A stretch of DNA of 64,000 nucleotides from Desulfobacterales bacterium (lineage in GTDB: Bacteria; Desulfobacterota; Desulfobacteria; Desulfobacterales; SpSt-501). Under the pieces are notes generated by a model. It was not told the origin of the DNA and did not search any database. It saw only the letters and a program-made list of their open reading frames with translations. The stretch covers positions 1 through 64,000 of the forward strand of contig JALOOU010000004.1 of assembly GCA_025454255.1 (NCBI GenBank), given 5' to 3'. How positions within the stretch are numbered: position 1 is the stretch's first letter; every line of letters starts with the position of its first letter. Below, in pieces: positions 13,791-46,193 of the stretch. The translations under genes and the position numbers were made by a program.

Positions 13791-16700
13791 AGCTGGGTAT
13801 CAGGGCCCTTCCGAGAGTGTCGATCAAGCCACGCTCCGGTCGCTGCGTGTAGATGCCGGCATCCGGGGCGAGCTCGCGGTTCACCCCCCGCAGGAAGACA
13901 TAGATCGCCCCGCCGAAATCGCGCTCATAGAGATAATCCGGGAGTCGCTGCCGCAGCAGCTGGTGCAGCGCCAGGCTGTAGAGATGGATCTGCAGATCAT
14001 AGCGGTGCGCCTGCATCGCGCGGCCCAGCCGTTCGCGGCGGTAGGCGTCGGTGTCCGCGCCCAACCGGTTGGATTTCCAATCGATCAGGTAAAAGCGGCC
14101 GCGGTGCTCGCAGACCAGGTCGATGAAGCCGCGCATAAAGCCTTGCGTGGGCGCAAACTGCAGCGGCGGGAGCTCATCGGAGGGCTCCGCGGCGGGCCGG
14201 CCCGGCGCCAGCAGATCCTCCAACCGCGCGGGGTCGACCGGATGGAGCGGAAAGTAGAACTCCATCTCCCGGATGCAGCGCTCGGGGGCGACCTCGCCCA
14301 AGCGCAGCGGAAATTCCGCGGCTTCCAGCGCAACGGCGGCCAGGTCCTGCACGAGGGCCGAAACCGGCTCGGTCCAGCAGGGATCGAACCCGAATTCGGA
14401 TAGCTTTTGGGCCACGACCGCGGCGGCATCGCTGCCGGTGAAATCGACCGCTTCCAAAAGGGCATGGAAAAAATTGCCGGAGCGGGCGCCGGCCGGGAAG
14501 CCGTGCAAACCGCTCGGGCTCGCCGCGGCCGCGCCGGCATCGTCGCCGGCGGCCGCGGCCGGATCCGCGCGGTCGGCGGTGCCGCCCGCGCCCGCCGCCA
14601 AGGCGGAGTAGCTGGTGATGCGCCAGCTGGCGTCGATGCGGCCGGCGAAGGTCCGGCAGACCGGAGGCGCCGCGGGTGCGGGGGATTCCCGCGTGCCGAT
14701 CGGGGCGGGGTCCGGCAGCGCCCGCACCCGGATGGAGCCGCCGGAGGCGTCGGCAAGGGCTTCCAGCCGCTCCCGCCACTGCGCATCGTCGGTGGTTTTG
14801 AACTCCGCCTTCAGGTGTTCGACCCAGTCGGCCGCGCCGTCGGCGCCGGTCGGCGCCTCCGTTGCCCTGAGCAGATAGGCCAGTGCAGAGCTCTCGGCGG
14901 TGTTGATCCTGCCCCACACCAGCGTGCAGCGCTCCCGCGCGCGGGTCAGCGCCACATAAAGCATCCGCAGATTTTCGGACAGCGCCTCGTTGCGGGCGCT
15001 GCGGCGGTTGGGCGATTCGCGCTCGCCGCTCAGGTCGGCGGTCAACTGAAAGTCATGGCGCGGGTCGTGGAAGAAGAAATCATCCCCGCGGACCGCGGAT
15101 GCCGCCCAGGTGAAGGGGCAGTAGACCACCGGGTACTCGAGCCCCTTGCTGCGGTGGATGGTGACAATCTTGACCGCGCGCGCGTCGCTCTCCAGCCGCA
15201 GCTGGTGCTCCTCGGAACGGTCGGCGGCGCCCCCCACCTGGCGGATGAACCATTTGAGGAGGCCGGAAACTCCCAGCTGGGTGTCGGCCGCCGCCCGGTG
15301 CAGCAGCTCGGCTAAGTGAAGCACATTGGTGAGGCGGCGTTCGCCGTCCGGCCAGGAGAGCAGCCTCTCGCGCACCGTTTCCCGGGCGAGCAACTGCCGG
15401 AACATCGGCATGAACCCCTGTTCGCGCCAGAGGTTCAGATACTCCCAGTGACGGCGGATGCGCTCCTCCCACACGGCTGATGTCGCCTCGTCGCCGGCGA
15501 GTGCCCCGGCCGTCAGCCCCAAAAGACGGGAGCTCAGCGCGGATTTGAGCCGGCCCGGGCTGTGGGGTTCGGCCACGGATGCCAGCACCGTCGCCAGGTC
15601 GGCGGCTTCCGGGGATTCGAATACGTCGGCCGTGCTGTAGAGCACGGAGGGGACCCCGGCGGCGGCGAAGTGCTCCTTCATCAGCCGGGCCTCGCGGTTG
15701 GTGCGCACGAGCACGGCGATCTCGCCGGTCCGGCCCGTCAGCGCTCCGCCGGCGGTCGCCGCCCGGATCTCACCGGTGACCGCGCGGGCGATGAGCCGCT
15801 GCGCCTGCGCCTTGCTCATGGGGCCGTTGCCGTCCTGGCGGCGGCGCGCATCCAGGTACCAGAGCTCCAGCGCCGGCCCCGGCCGTCGGAGGTCGCCTCG
15901 GGCGGAGCGGCCCGGGATGAAGCCGATGCGTGGGAAAAGGAAAGGCGCGGGCGCCCGCGAAAAAAGGGTGTTCACCGCCTGGACCAACCCGGGCGCCGAG
16001 CGCCAGTTGGTGGTCAGGGTGTAGCGCGCCTTGGCGTCCCGGGCGGCGCGCAGGTAGGAAAAGATATCGGCTCCGCGGAATCCGTATATGGCCTGCTTGG
16101 GGTCTCCGATCATGAACAGCAACTGGCCGGGCGCTCCGAAGAGTTTGGAAAAAACACGGTACTGCAGCTCGTCGGTGTCCTGAAATTCGTCTACCAGCGC
16201 CGCCCGATAGCGGCGGCGAACGGCGGCGACCAGTGCCGCGGCCGGTTGCCGGTCGAGGGCCTGAGCCAGGCGCCGCAGCAGGTCGTCGTAGGAGATCAGG
16301 CCTCTTTCGGCCTTGCGCCGCTCGAGCTCCGTTCGCACGAAGCCGAGCAGCGTCGACTTCACGTGGAGCAGATGGGCGCGCATCTGCCGATCCAGGTCGA
16401 CCCGGGCGCGCTGCAGGAGCTCGCAGGCGTCGAACAGGGGGTGTCCGGGCGCCGGGTGACGGGCGCGGGTGTGGCGGGCCAGCGTAGCGGAGGAGAGGCG
16501 CTCCAGTGCGGCCGGCGGCGGGTAGGCCGGCAGCTGCCCCATCGTGTATGCATCCAGGGTTTCGAGCAGCTCCGTGATCTTGCGCTGCCGGCCGGCGGGG
16601 GCGCCGGGAGCCTCTGCGGCGGTCGCGCCGTAAATGCGCGCATTCAGCGCGGCCGCCAGCAGGATATGGCCAGCCTCCTCGCGGCCTCCCGGCCAGATCG

Positions 16701-17364
16701 CCTGCAGCCCCTTCAGCCGGTCGCGGAACGCAGCCACGGCGCGGGGGCTCAGGCCGGGGCCGTGGCTGGGCGGCGTCACGCTGAATTCGGCCGCGATCGA
16801 AGCGCGGGCCAGATCGCGCAAGTCCTCGGGGGAGTCCATCTGTGCACGGGCGAAGCGGATGAACTCCGGCGGTGCGAGGGTCACCTGCCGGCGCCAGAAG
16901 TCGTCCACCACCTCCGCCAGGATGCGCTCCTGGTCCTCGATCATCCGGGTGCTGAAGGGGCTTTGGGTCTCGAAGGCGTTGTCGTGCAGCACGCGCTGGC
17001 AGAAGCCGTGGATCGTGAAAATGCCGGCCCGGTCGAAATCGACCAGCGCCTGGTGCAGGAGCCGCCGCGCCGCCGGGGGATCGGGGTGTTCGGCCGCGAG
17101 GTGGGCCAGCAGCTCGTCGTCGCCGGCGGGGGCGCCGTCGAGCACATCGCGTGCGGTGACCAGGCGCCGATAGATCCGGTCCCTCAGCTCGGCCGTGGCG
17201 GCGCGGGTGAAGGTCACCACCAGAATCTGCTCGACCGGCAGGCCGCTCTCCAGCGCCAGCCGGATGAACAGCCCTTCGATCGTGTGGGTCTTGCCGGTGC
17301 CGGCGGCCGCCTCGATCAGGCCGACGCCCTCCAGCGGGGTGCGAACGGGGTCAAAGGGGATCAT
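13783..17364 (-). CDS. recB: Exodeoxyribonuclease V subunit beta (RecB helicase-nuclease)
   Basis: A 1193-residue RecB. UvrD-type helicase core: Walker A 'AAAGTGKT' at 19-26, 'YDDLLRRL', 'LVDEFQDTDELQYRVF' (motif II), 'GDPKQAIYGFRGADIFSYL' and 'TIHRSKGLEYPVVYCPF'. The C-terminal RecB nuclease domain keeps its catalytic set: 'GFIDLVCEHRGRFYLIDWKSN', Asp and Lys at about 1095 and 1097, then 'YDLQIHLYSLALHQLLR'. It unwinds 3'-5' and degrades or processes DNA ends until a Chi-like site. The start overlaps the preceding FlhB-like gene by 4 bp and the end overlaps recD by 8 bp. Confidence 0.97.
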   Translation of the reverse strand: MIPFDPVRTPLEGVGLIEAAAGTGKTHTIEGLFIRLALESGLPVEQILVVTFTRAATAELRDRIYRRLVTARDVLDGAPAGDDELLAHLAAEHPDPPAARRLLHQALVDFDRAGIFTIHGFCQRVLHDNAFETQSPFSTRMIEDQERILAEVVDDFWRRQVTLAPPEFIRFARAQMDSPEDLRDLARASIAAEFSVTPPSHGPGLSPRAVAAFRDRLKGLQAIWPGGREEAGHILLAAALNARIYGATAAEAPGAPAGRQRKITELLETLDAYTMGQLPAYPPPAALERLSSATLARHTRARHPAPGHPLFDACELLQRARVDLDRQMRAHLLHVKSTLLGFVRTELERRKAERGLISYDDLLRRLAQALDRQPAAALVAAVRRRYRAALVDEFQDTDELQYRVFSKLFGAPGQLLFMIGDPKQAIYGFRGADIFSYLRAARDAKARYTLTTNWRSAPGLVQAVNTLFSRAPAPFLFPRIGFIPGRSARGDLRRPGPALELWYLDARRRQDGNGPMSKAQAQRLIARAVTGEIRAATAGGALTGRTGEIAVLVRTNREARLMKEHFAAAGVPSVLYSTADVFESPEAADLATVLASVAEPHSPGRLKSALSSRLLGLTAGALAGDEATSAVWEERIRRHWEYLNLWREQGFMPMFRQLLARETVRERLLSWPDGERRLTNVLHLAELLHRAAADTQLGVSGLLKWFIRQVGGAADRSEEHQLRLESDARAVKIVTIHRSKGLEYPVVYCPFTWAASAVRGDDFFFHDPRHDFQLTADLSGERESPNRRSARNEALSENLRMLYVALTRARERCTLVWGRINTAESSALAYLLRATEAPTGADGAADWVEHLKAEFKTTDDAQWRERLEALADASGGSIRVRALPDPAPIGTRESPAPAAPPVCRTFAGRIDASWRITSYSALAAGAGGTADRADPAAAAGDDAGAAAASPSGLHGFPAGARSGNFFHALLEAVDFTGSDAAAVVAQKLSEFGFDPCWTEPVSALVQDLAAVALEAAEFPLRLGEVAPERCIREMEFYFPLHPVDPARLEDLLAPGRPAAEPSDELPPLQFAPTQGFMRGFIDLVCEHRGRFYLIDWKSNRLGADTDAYRRERLGRAMQAHRYDLQIHLYSLALHQLLRQRLPDYLYERDFGGAIYVFLRGVNRELAPDAGIYTQRPERGLIDTLGRALIPSYG

Positions 17365-41308: not shown

Positions 41309-42451
41309 ATGATGCTCTCCTCCAAACTGCCTTCGGTCGGGATGACCATCTTCACCGAGATGACCAACCTGGCGAACGCCCACGGCGCCATAAACCTCTC
41401 CCAGGGGTTCCCGGAATTCGACCCCCACCCGCTGCTGCAGGAGCTCGTGTTGAAATACATGCGCGCCGGTCGCAACCAGTACGCGCCGATGCAGGGCGTC
41501 GTGGCGCTGCGGGAGGTGATCGCGCAAAAGGCCCGGGACCTGTATGGGGCGACCTACGATCCCGCTGCGGAGATCACCGTCACGGCCGGAGCCACCGAAG
41601 CGTTGTTTGCAGCCATCACGGCCGTGGTCCACCCCGGCGATGAGGTCCTCATCCTGGAGCCGGCCTACGACTGCTATATCCCCATGGTTCGCTTGAGCGG
41701 CGGCCGCCCGGTCTTCGTTCCGCTCAACCATCCATCCTATCGCGTCGACTGGGAGGCCTTCCGCCGCAAGATCACCCCCCGCACGCGGTTGGCGATCCTG
41801 AATTTTCCCCACAACCCCAGCGGCGCGATCCTGACGCCGGGCGATCTCGCGGCGCTGGCGGAGGTGCTGCGCGATACCCGCATCCTGCTGCTCAGCGACG
41901 AAGTCTACGAGCACATCGTCTTCGACGGACGCACGCACAGCAGCCTCTGCACGCATCCTGAGCTGCGCGAGCGCAGCTTCGTCGTCAGCTCCTTTGCAAA
42001 GACCTATCACGCCACGGGATGGAAGGTCGGCTACTGCCTCGCTCCCCGGCCGCTGTCGGTCGAGTTCCAGAAGGTGCATCAGTATCTGGTGTTTTCCGTC
42101 AACGCGCCGGTGCAGCACGCGCTGGCGGAGTTCATGCAGGATGCCAGCCACGCCGCCGGCCTCGCCGCCCACTACCAGTCGCTGCGGGACCTGCTGGTCG
42201 AGCGTCTGGCCGGTTCCCGTTTCCGGCCGCTGGCGTGCCATGGCACCTTCTTCCTGATGCTCGATTATTCGGCCGTGAGCGCCGAGCCGGATCTCGCCTT
42301 CGCGCGCCGGCTCACGCGCGAGCATCGGGTGGCCGCCATCCCTCCCTCGGTGTTTCACCACGACGGCGCCGACCACCGGCTGCTGCGCCTCTGTTTTGCC
42401 AAAACCCCGGCCACTCTGAACGAGGCGGCGGAGCGCCTGGGTCGCATATGA
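41309..42451 (+). CDS. PLP-dependent aminotransferase (YbdL/methionine aminotransferase-like)
   Basis: A 380-residue class I/II fold-type I aminotransferase. 'GMTIFTEMTNLANAHGAINLSQGFPEFD' marks the YbdL/KAT subgroup, which transaminates methionine, kynurenine and related amino acids. The PLP Lys is in 'SSFAKTYHATGWKVGY'; 'NFPHNPSGA' and 'SDEVYEHIVFDG' are the usual cofactor-contact segments. The end overlaps the start of the SprT-like gene by 4 bp (ATGA), so the two are translated together. Confidence 0.93.
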   Translation: MMLSSKLPSVGMTIFTEMTNLANAHGAINLSQGFPEFDPHPLLQELVLKYMRAGRNQYAPMQGVVALREVIAQKARDLYGATYDPAAEITVTAGATEALFAAITAVVHPGDEVLILEPAYDCYIPMVRLSGGRPVFVPLNHPSYRVDWEAFRRKITPRTRLAILNFPHNPSGAILTPGDLAALAEVLRDTRILLLSDEVYEHIVFDGRTHSSLCTHPELRERSFVVSSFAKTYHATGWKVGYCLAPRPLSVEFQKVHQYLVFSVNAPVQHALAEFMQDASHAAGLAAHYQSLRDLLVERLAGSRFRPLACHGTFFLMLDYSAVSAEPDLAFARRLTREHRVAAIPPSVFHHDGADHRLLRLCFAKTPATLNEAAERLGRI

Positions 42452-43551
42452 GCCTTGAGCGCGAAGGCCGCATTCTGCGCGGGGTGGCGTGCGAGTGGGA
42501 GTGCGCCCGCCGGATGCTCGACCCCGCGCTTGCCCGGCGGCTGCGCCGGCCCCTGTTCATGCTGGATGACGCCACCTCCCGCTGGGGGTCGTGGTCGGCC
42601 GAGCGCTGCGAGATTCGCATGAGCCGGGCGCTGATCGACCGGCACCCCTGGGACGCCGTGCGCGAAGTGCTCTTCCACGAAATGGCGCACCAGTTGGCCG
42701 ATGAGCTGTTCGATGCCCGCGGCGAAACCGCCCACGGTCCGATGTTTCTCAAGGCCTGCCGCCTGCTGGGGGCGAACCCGCGCGCATCGGGCCATTTCAC
42801 CTTGCCGACCGAGCAGGTGCGCCGCGCAGCGGCGCACGGCCCCGACCGGTCGGCCGAGCGCATCCGCAAGCTGCTCGCCCTGGCCGGCAGCTCCAACCCG
42901 CACGAGGCCGACGCCGCCATGCTGAAAGCCCACCAGCTCATGGCCCGCGTCGAAGCCCGCTCCGGCGCGGCTGCGCCGGAGCGCGAGTTTTTCAGCATCT
43001 TCGTCGGCCGGCCCGCGCTGCGGCACAGCCGTGCGCACTACCACCTGGCCGCGCTCTTGAGGGACTTCTACTTCGTGCTGCCGATCTGGGTCCCGGCCTA
43101 TGTCCTGGACCGCTCCCGCATGGGGCGCGCCCTCGAGATCAGCGGCACGGCGTTCCAACTCAGGACCGCGGCCTACGTCTACGCTTTCATGCAACGGGTC
43201 ATCGCCGAGGAGTGGGCGCACTGGGCCCGCCGCGGCACCGTTGGCCGGCGGGGGGCGGCCGTCTTCGGAGTGGGGGTGGTCGAAGGCTTCCGCGCCCGGC
43301 TGGCTGCCGCACGCTCCCGCCCGCGGGCGGGAGCGTGCGGCAGCCAGCTTGCGCTGGTGCCGGCGGCCGACCCGGAGCTGGCCGACTATTTCAAGCGCCG
43401 CCACCCGCATACCACGCGCGTGGGCCGCAGCGCCGCGCGCATTCACCGGGGCGCGCTCCAGGCGGGCCGGGAGGTCGGCAACCGCCTGGTGGTGTCGCAG
43501 CCGGCGGCCGAAATCGGCGCCGCCGGCGGCCTGTTGCCGGGCCCGGGGTGA
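42448..43551 (+). CDS. SprT-like zinc metalloprotease domain with DUF2786
   Basis: A 367-residue protein. Zinc motif 'HEMAHQLADEL' at H77-E78-x-x-H81 within a SprT-like fold ('RWGSWSAERCEIRMSRALI' just before). A DUF2786 segment follows at ~138-175 ('RIRKLLALAGSSNPHEADAAMLKAHQLM'), then a mixed C-terminal region. SprT/Spartan proteins cleave DNA-protein crosslinks; the DUF2786 combination is typical of bacterial chromosomal copies of unknown target. The ATG at 42448 overlaps the aminotransferase stop. A 50-bp perfect palindrome lies inside the gene (43299-43348). Confidence 0.85.
   Translation: MSLEREGRILRGVACEWECARRMLDPALARRLRRPLFMLDDATSRWGSWSAERCEIRMSRALIDRHPWDAVREVLFHEMAHQLADELFDARGETAHGPMFLKACRLLGANPRASGHFTLPTEQVRRAAAHGPDRSAERIRKLLALAGSSNPHEADAAMLKAHQLMARVEARSGAAAPEREFFSIFVGRPALRHSRAHYHLAALLRDFYFVLPIWVPAYVLDRSRMGRALEISGTAFQLRTAAYVYAFMQRVIAEEWAHWARRGTVGRRGAAVFGVGVVEGFRARLAAARSRPRAGACGSQLALVPAADPELADYFKRRHPHTTRVGRSAARIHRGALQAGREVGNRLVVSQPAAEIGAAGGLLPGPG
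43299..43348. repeat. 50-bp perfect palindrome inside the SprT-like gene
   Basis: The two 25-base halves are exact reverse complements with no spacer: left half 43299-43323 begins GCTGGCTGCCGCACGCTCCC, right half 43324-43348 ends GAGCGTGCGGCAGCCAGC. The same peptide, LAAARSRPRAGACGSQ, is therefore encoded on both strands. The pair at 43298/43349 does not match, so the palindrome ends there. Confidence 0.95.
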
Positions 43552-43575: not shown

Positions 43576-45228
43576 TCAGGCGCCGCTGGCAGCCGCACCG
43601 GTCGTTTCCTTCAGCCAATACGGGTTGATCAAGTCGGCGAAGATGGTCATGGCCGCCTCGGCGCCCTGGCCCGCAGCGGTCACGATCTGTTTGTAGCCGC
43701 CTTCCACGTCGCCGGCGGAGTACACACCGGGGAGCCGCGTGCGGTGCCGGCCGTCGTGCGGGATATAGCCGTCGGCGTTTAGCTCAAGCCCAAGCTTTCC
43801 GGCCAGTTCGACGGCCGGCTCGTAGCCGACGGCGATGAACACCCCGTCGGTGGCGAAAACGGAGGTTTGGTTGCTGCGGTTGTCGACCAGAAGGACCTCG
43901 CGCACCCGGTCCTCTCCCCGGATTTCGCGGATTTCGGTGTTCCAGCGCACCGGGATGCCGGTTTCAGAGAGCCGCCGGGCCAGAAACTCCTGGGCTCGCA
44001 GCGTGTCGCGGCGGTGGACCAGGGTGACCTTCACCCCCATGTGGTGCAGGTAGAGGGCCTCGGTCACGGCGCTGTTGCCGCCGCCGACCATGAGGACTTT
44101 TTTGCCTTTGAACAGGGGCCCGTCGCAGGTGCTGCAGTAGCTTACGCCGCGGCCGGCCAGGCGGGACTCGCCGGGCACGTTCAGGTGGCGGTGGTTGGCG
44201 CCGGTCGCCAGCAGAATGGCCTTGGTCATGAACTTGCGGCGGCTCGTCTGCACCACGATCGGGTTGCCGTGAGCGATGTCGAGCACCCCTTCCCCCTGAA
44301 AGATCTGCACGTACTGCAGGGCGTGGCTGACCATGATGTCCACCAGCGTCTTGCCCCCGACCGAGGTGAACCCGGGGTAATTTTCGACCACGGGCGTGGT
44401 GGCCACCTGCCCCCCGAGCGCCTGCCGCTCGATGATCGCGGTGCGCAGCCCGCTTCGCACGGCATAAATGCCGGCCGTCAGCCCCGCCGGCCCTCCCCCC
44501 ACGATCACCAGGTCGGCCTCGACCTCTTCGGCATCGCTCTCCGGGATGAAAATCGTCTGCGCCTCGAGTTTCTGGAGGGAGAGCATGAAGACCTCCTCCG
44601 CCTGCGCGCCGTGCCCGATGAGAACCTCGTTGGCAAACGCCATGGGGACGCTGTGGGCGGAGTAGCGGTCGGCCAGTTCGGTTTCGGACTGGATGTCGAT
44701 GATTTCGAGCGAGACGTGCTCGGGCAGCTCGATGGCGGCTTTGACCCCGTTGACGGCCTGCTGCGGACAGTAGGGGCAGGTCGCGCTGACGAACACCTTC
44801 ACCTGCCGCGCGGAGTCGATGCGCCGCAGGACCTTGCGGGACTGCTCGTTCAGATTGCTCTGCCCAAGGCCCACCAGCATGAATGTCTCCAGCAGCGTGC
44901 GGGCCTCCTCGCCCATCGGGGCGCCCAGCCACCGGATCGAATATCGATCCGGCGCAACCAGCAGCGTCGGGGAGGAGGTGACCTGGTAGCGGCGGGCCAG
45001 CTCATGGTCCAGACCGTATTCCTTCAGGCTGATGCGGGGGCTCAGTTCGCGAAAGGCCCGAATGACCTGACGGGTCGCCTGGGCAAACAGGTCGTTGCCG
45101 CCTTTGTCGGTGAACAGCAGCAGCGGGATGTCGTTCGGCAGCTGTTCGAAGGTTTTTTTCAGCTGGCGCAGATAGGCCTCGCTGGCCAGGTCTCTCTCGG
45201 GTGCGCCGGGGGGTTGGGGCTGTGGCAT
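43576..45228 (-). CDS. AhpF-like thioredoxin reductase with N-terminal thioredoxin folds
   Basis: A 550-residue flavoprotein. Residues ~1-125 are a thioredoxin-like fold without a CxxC; ~140-225 a second one with redox centre C151-P-Y-C154. The TrxR core follows: FAD motif 'VIVGGGPAGLTAGIYA' (~241-256), NAD(P)H motif 'VLMVGGGNSAVTEALYLHHMG' and C365-S-T-C368 in 'YCSTCDGP'. This is the AhpF/PDO-TrxR arrangement, which hands electrons from NAD(P)H to a peroxiredoxin. No ahpC is near. A GGGAGGAG ribosome-binding site precedes the start; a TTGACA sits at 45299-45304 but a matching -10 is weak. Confidence 0.93.
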   Translation of the reverse strand: MPQPQPPGAPERDLASEAYLRQLKKTFEQLPNDIPLLLFTDKGGNDLFAQATRQVIRAFRELSPRISLKEYGLDHELARRYQVTSSPTLLVAPDRYSIRWLGAPMGEEARTLLETFMLVGLGQSNLNEQSRKVLRRIDSARQVKVFVSATCPYCPQQAVNGVKAAIELPEHVSLEIIDIQSETELADRYSAHSVPMAFANEVLIGHGAQAEEVFMLSLQKLEAQTIFIPESDAEEVEADLVIVGGGPAGLTAGIYAVRSGLRTAIIERQALGGQVATTPVVENYPGFTSVGGKTLVDIMVSHALQYVQIFQGEGVLDIAHGNPIVVQTSRRKFMTKAILLATGANHRHLNVPGESRLAGRGVSYCSTCDGPLFKGKKVLMVGGGNSAVTEALYLHHMGVKVTLVHRRDTLRAQEFLARRLSETGIPVRWNTEIREIRGEDRVREVLLVDNRSNQTSVFATDGVFIAVGYEPAVELAGKLGLELNADGYIPHDGRHRTRLPGVYSAGDVEGGYKQIVTAAGQGAEAAMTIFADLINPYWLKETTGAAASGA

Positions 45229-45300: not shown

Positions 45301-46005
45301 TCAATCGTTTTGCGGGTCGAGGGGCTGGGCCGCCAGGGCCTCCGCGACCCACAGGTCCTCGCGGGTGGTGATTTTGATGTTTCTCCGGCTGCCGGGGATG
45401 ACGTGGACGGGGGCCCCCAGGCGCTCGACCAGAGCGGCGTCGTCGGTTCCGTAGAAGCCGTCCTGCCGGGCCTGCTCGTGCGCGCGGCGGATCAGCCCGA
45501 TGCGAAACGCCTGCGGCGTCTGCGCCAACCAGACGGCCTCGCGCGGCAGGGTGGATGCGATGAGGCCGCCCGCTCCACAGAGTTTCACGGTCTCCCAGAC
45601 CGGCAGGCCGGCAATGCAGGCGCCGCTGCGCAGGGCGGTTTGCACGCAGGCGTCGATGAGCGGCGCAGGCACCAAGGGCCTTGCCCCATCGTGGATGGCG
45701 ACGACGGCGTCGTCCGGTCCGAGCTCGCGCAGTCCACGGTAGACCGAATCCTGCCGCCGTTCGCCTCCGGCCACCAGGGTCACGGGCGTCCGCAGCCCGG
45801 CCGCAGCGAGGATGCGCTCGCGGCAATAGCCGATGTCGGCGGCGGGCACCACCAGCACGATGGCCTCGAAACGCGTGGCGCCGGCCTCCATCGACCTCAG
45901 GGTGCGGGTGAGGATCGGCACGCCGGCCAGAGGCAGGTATTGCTTGGGCTGCGGCCCGGGCAGGCGGGTCCCCTTGCCCGCCGCCACGATCAGCGCGTAC
46001 GCCAT
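45301..46005 (-). CDS. ispD: 2-C-methyl-D-erythritol 4-phosphate cytidylyltransferase
   Basis: A 234-residue IspD, third step of the MEP isoprenoid pathway. CTP-binding loop 'IVAAGKGTRLPGPQPKQYLPL', 'VAIHDGARPLVP' and 'TLPREAVWLAQTPQAFRI'. The C-terminal 'VHVIPGSRRNIKITTREDLWVAEAL' is intact. The start at 46005 gives the family N-terminus and has GGGAGG 9 bases upstream; the frame is open to 46065. Confidence 0.95.
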   Translation of the reverse strand: MAYALIVAAGKGTRLPGPQPKQYLPLAGVPILTRTLRSMEAGATRFEAIVLVVPAADIGYCRERILAAAGLRTPVTLVAGGERRQDSVYRGLRELGPDDAVVAIHDGARPLVPAPLIDACVQTALRSGACIAGLPVWETVKLCGAGGLIASTLPREAVWLAQTPQAFRIGLIRRAHEQARQDGFYGTDDAALVERLGAPVHVIPGSRRNIKITTREDLWVAEALAAQPLDPQND

Positions 46006-46193
46006 GCTCCGGCCCTCCCTTCCGCTGCCGCCGCCTCCCCGGCCGATGGGGTGGCCGTTTCGCAAGCGCTGGATGGCGCCTCAGGCCAAGGCCGCTGCGA
46101 TGCCGCCGCCGGCAGGCGCGGCCCGCCACTGCCGCGGATGGCGACGAGCAAAAAACCCGGCATGGGTCGAACGACGTCGTTGGCGGTGGGGCG

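Follow-up and report, generated by a model that had tools for sequence, protein, structure and literature searches.

We describe a perfect palindrome of 50 bp within a gene for a SprT-like protein of a Desulfobacterales bacterium, and we consider that it was probably made by a natural template-switch mutation of the quasipalindrome type. The palindrome lies at 43299-43348 of the window, by which we mean the whole stretch of 64,000 nucleotides that was analysed. Its two 25-nt arms are complementary at 25 of 25 pairs (100%), with a spacer of 0 nt, and it sits within the uninterrupted reading frame of the host gene, as a preliminary description of this DNA had stated. The symmetry stops with the 25-bp arms, the next flanking pair (43298 g and 43349 t) being unpaired. 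It had also been pointed out that both strands encode LAAARSRPRAGACGSQ; this is true, yet automatic for any perfect palindrome, and adds no information. The features referred to below are as follows.

42448-43551, plus strand: host gene, 367 aa, SprT-like, DUF2786 and DUF7168 (Pfam matches above cut-off, uninterrupted translation)
43299-43348, no strand: 50-bp perfect spacerless palindrome (arm comparison and palindrome counts)
43299-43323, plus strand: arm 1, probable donor, R284 (third base) to P292; encodes the last part of the conserved helix 267-290, with the invariant L285 (orthologue alignment and AlphaFold model)
43324-43348, plus strand: arm 2, probable inverted copy, R293 to L301 (first base); loop predicted to be disordered, pLDDT <50 at 294-304 (alignment, linker lengths and AlphaFold model)
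43303-43368, plus strand: hypervariable linker of 22 residues, from the invariant L285 to the nearly invariant D308 (orthologue linker lengths)

The host gene and its protein

The host protein has a SprT-like domain (residues 43-109), a DUF2786 domain (137-167) and a DUF7168 domain (192-291), all above the Pfam cut-offs. The first of these (PF10263, 43.5 bits against a cut-off of 25.6) contains the HExxH motif at residues 77-81, and H77, E78 and H81 are kept in every aligned sequence. With this domain and motif, the gene can be classed from its sequence as encoding a predicted SprT-like metallopeptidase. Orthologues are present in 33 of the 58 genomes searched. In three genomes of the same genus (G003, G004 and G005) the best matches are 33-35% identical, below those of most other families of the order, and the version of the gene in these genomes may be a different one. 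In an AlphaFold2 model of the protein (mean pLDDT 82, pTM 0.82) the helix 267-290 falls at arm 1, while the residues with pLDDT <50 (294-304) are mostly encoded by arm 2. The neighbouring gene (43579-45228, minus strand, 550 aa) combines a thioredoxin-like domain with a thioredoxin-reductase-like flavoprotein in an AhpF-like layout, and IspD lies beyond it at 45304-46065.

Rarity of the palindrome in the genome

Perfect complementarity over 25 bp cannot plausibly be due to chance. In 692 kb of the source genome (65% GC), about 6e-9 spacerless palindromes with arms of at least 25 bp are expected, and the runner-up there has arms of 13 bp. Counts of short arms match expectation, with 314 palindromes having arms of exactly 6 bp, where about 287 were expected for arms of at least 6. 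When spacers of up to 20 nt were allowed, over a baseline of 837 kb of the 4.1-Mb genome, the next longest stem was one of 20 bp with a 7-nt loop. Six further stems reach 15 bp or more. Five of them occupy gaps between coding-like frames or the edges of such frames and resemble terminators; the remaining one (L055:19459-19497) is in an open frame, on the upstream side of that frame's receiver domain, and probably precedes the true start of its gene. The palindrome at 43299-43348 is thus the only long stem within conserved coding sequence in the 837 kb sampled. In two relatives, G016 (220 kb) and G001 (160 kb), no arm longer than 14 was found at a spacer of 0 or 1 nt.

Replacement of a variable linker

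The host protein was aligned with 29 orthologues, giving 30 sequences, all 30 of which share L285. The linker between this leucine and D308 is 22 residues long here, 21 in the same-genus orthologue from G001, and 16-25 (median 20) among full-length orthologues, one truncated sequence having been set aside. The conserved GFRxRL before the linker and ALVP after it are both in register with the orthologues, whereas the residues of arm 2 coincide with no conserved alignment column. This normal length indicates that sequence was replaced rather than inserted, and an insertion of 50 bp is excluded as far as the homologues tell. The palindrome is absent from all 29 aligned orthologues, whose linkers have, as their longest exact inverted repeats, arms of 3-7 bp. 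According to the preliminary description, a homologous gene with no palindrome and a protein alignment that jumps at this place would speak against a real element; homologues do lack the palindrome, but the alignment does not jump. Of the origins suggested there, a rare inverted duplication came closest, in the form of a short inverted duplication, not as an insertion: a loop was replaced, with the linker of normal length and the flanks aligning with the 29 orthologues. The nearest orthologue, found among the genome contigs and all 7 genomes of the genus, has a protein identity of 68% and a DNA identity of 70%, and so the ancestral linker is beyond reconstruction and the event has no phylogenetic bracket.

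These observations bear on whether a small palindromic mobile element was inserted in frame, as Rickettsia palindromic elements or REP/REPIN sequences are. The sequence is palindromic and in frame inside a gene, and Rickettsia palindromic elements, as they are cited in PMC6649704, are likewise palindromic DNA in frame in genes. As cited there, however, those elements are transposable insertions, and both they and REP/REPIN sequences are recognized by several copies per genome together with insertion. Here the palindrome is single-copy in the 4.11-Mb, 194-contig assembly, and the linker exceeds that of the same-genus orthologue by just one residue, leaving no room for 50 inserted bp; a mobile element is an extremely improbable source. 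A repeat family was rejected, the locus itself being the sole copy in the assembly, and a search of plasmids gave no match.

A sequencing or assembly artefact must also be weighed, in which the second arm came from a read that was chimeric or had primed itself, or from a local consensus error. The palindrome is known from a single metagenome assembly (194 contigs, 87% complete) and from no orthologue, which speaks for such an error. A fold-back chimera, which the preliminary description had suggested, would however run reversed past the midpoint. Instead, after 25 bp the gene runs on in the forward direction, its frame kept and in register with the orthologues, which makes a simple fold-back chimera unlikely. 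The linker is of normal length, and an error of this kind requires two precise switches, after which it must prevail in the consensus. We regard an artefact as improbable.

A proposed template-switch origin

The locus shows an adjacent perfect inverted repeat, and a recipient stretch that has been replaced with its flanks in register, as expected of a template switch. According to the mechanism we propose, the nascent strand would have paired back on itself at the GC-rich self-complementary centre cccgcggg, or moved to the opposite strand, and about 20 nt of arm 1 would have been copied as their reverse complement. Polymerization would then have returned to the proper template just ahead of the conserved ALVP segment, so that inverted arm 1 sequence overwrote the variable linker without loss of the reading frame. 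The change could have persisted since it affects a loop, where the protein sequence can vary freely. We infer the switch itself, its direction from arm 1 to arm 2, and its action within or between strands from the product. Snap-back in cis usually leaves some bases unpaired in a loop, and for a product with no spacer either the core must be self-complementary or the switch must run between strands; both routes are compatible with the palindrome, the core in question being cccgcggg.

Arm 1 is probably the older arm and arm 2 its inverted copy, because the last part of a conserved helix and L285 are encoded by arm 1, and a loop modelled as disordered by arm 2. The same mechanism could have worked in the opposite direction, with arm 2 ancestral and arm 1 the copy, the direction being read from protein constraint only. 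Yet the helix end and the leucine common to 30 of 30 sequences lie in arm 1, and the residues of arm 2 fit no conserved column, which leaves the reverse direction little probability.

A possible seed for the switch from arm 1 to arm 2 is seen in the G001 orthologue, which has a weak quasipalindrome (11 of 15 pairs) whose centre lies about 1.5 nt away from the homologous midpoint. It is suggestive only, with P ~0.03 at that centre and 0.29 anywhere in the linker. The G001 linker also folds better than codon shuffles (P 0.008), and together these two observations make a seed plausible.

A further possibility is that the palindrome was selected for its hairpin, in mRNA or in DNA, which would pause translation or would mark or regulate the host gene. 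Its RNA is predicted to fold at -57.7 kcal/mol (z -10.8 against shuffles), and the linker of the same-genus orthologue is in the best-folding 2% of its gene's windows. However, inverted repeats in the 29 other linkers have arms of 3-7 bp at most, orthologue linkers usually fold no better than the remainder of their gene, and the position of the palindrome fits the tolerance of a protein loop. An RNA hairpin could slow translation, but we found no sign of selection for one, and a selected function seems very unlikely. The hairpin-forming element raised in the preliminary description is disfavoured as a conserved element, the palindrome being in no orthologue. A conserved RNA hairpin was rejected, the structure not being kept across homologues, and so was a transcription terminator, as the stem lies inside the gene and no T-run follows it.

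In E. coli, template switching is known to turn quasipalindromes into perfect ones (PMC7202029; Ripley model). The reporter in that work was an 18-bp quasipalindrome with 4-bp changes, whereas here the product is a spacerless palindrome of 50 bp and the precursor is not reconstructed. A single switch can also create perfect stems (Monttinen and Loytynoja, PMC8794818), and as in those stems a local switch accounts for the new reverse-complement repeat; those cases concern RNA genes with ancestral reconstruction, unlike the protein-coding gene and single distant congener considered here. In yeast, template switches rewrote codons in 39 genes (PMC8604942), a multi-codon replacement in protein-coding DNA like the present one, with up to five neighbouring residues changed there and about 8 here. 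Perfect inverted repeats also occur inside functional coding genes of Nematomorpha mitochondria, and template switching was proposed as their origin (PMC6649704). Those repeats number 110 of at least 15 bp, have both arms in conserved protein and recur across species, unlike the one palindrome found here in 837 kb sampled, whose second arm lies in a variable, disordered loop.

Stability of the palindrome and SbcCD

The preliminary description remarked that such palindromes are normally unstable because SbcCD cleaves them. At 50 bp this is plausible, since hairpins from palindromes of 20-36 bp mark the lower limit of SbcCD cleavage in vitro (PMC4245961). In E. coli, however, the palindromes shown to cause breakage and death measured 246-480 bp (PMC4245961), and the genus considered here has no detectable canonical SbcD. 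The SbcD model TIGR00619 had no match above cut-off in seven of seven genus genomes, and none of the 7 has PF12320, the C-terminal domain specific to SbcD, which 6 of 14 controls including E. coli do have. For the source genome taken alone this negative is limited by a completeness of 87%, but it holds in the more complete genomes of the genus (G001, 98%; G003 and G004, 100%). Canonical SbcD is present in three other families of the order. The SbcC model TIGR00618 was uninformative, exceeding its cut-off in 1 of 14 controls, and its match in the source genome is an SMC-like protein. The source genome also has an SbcD-like metallophosphoesterase (G000:C48:15322-15627; L063:1441-2748) that matches the N-terminal part of the SbcD model only and, by its sequence, is perhaps of the YhaO sort. 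Lack of SbcCD may help the palindrome to persist, as a correlation only, and the palindrome was presumably tolerated through both neutrality and missing SbcCD. The recBCD system, named earlier as needed for repair of the resulting breaks, fits the source genome, as a full-length RecB is encoded in the window (13813-17355, minus strand; 898 bits, above the TIGR00609 cut-off).

Implications

Taken alone, the palindrome is one event by a known mechanism, of which it is an unusually long, clean and perfect example. If our reading is true, it provides a clean, long natural case from a bacterium in which a template switch changed a section of a protein in a single step, and the genus concerned has no detectable SbcD. 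One may speculate further, though we hold this broader idea to be improbable, that where a lineage has lost canonical SbcCD, long perfect palindromes can arise in genes and be retained there, so that template switching would become a visible source of new protein loops. The case raises the question of whether genic spacerless palindromes of at least 40 bp are commoner in genomes without SbcCD.
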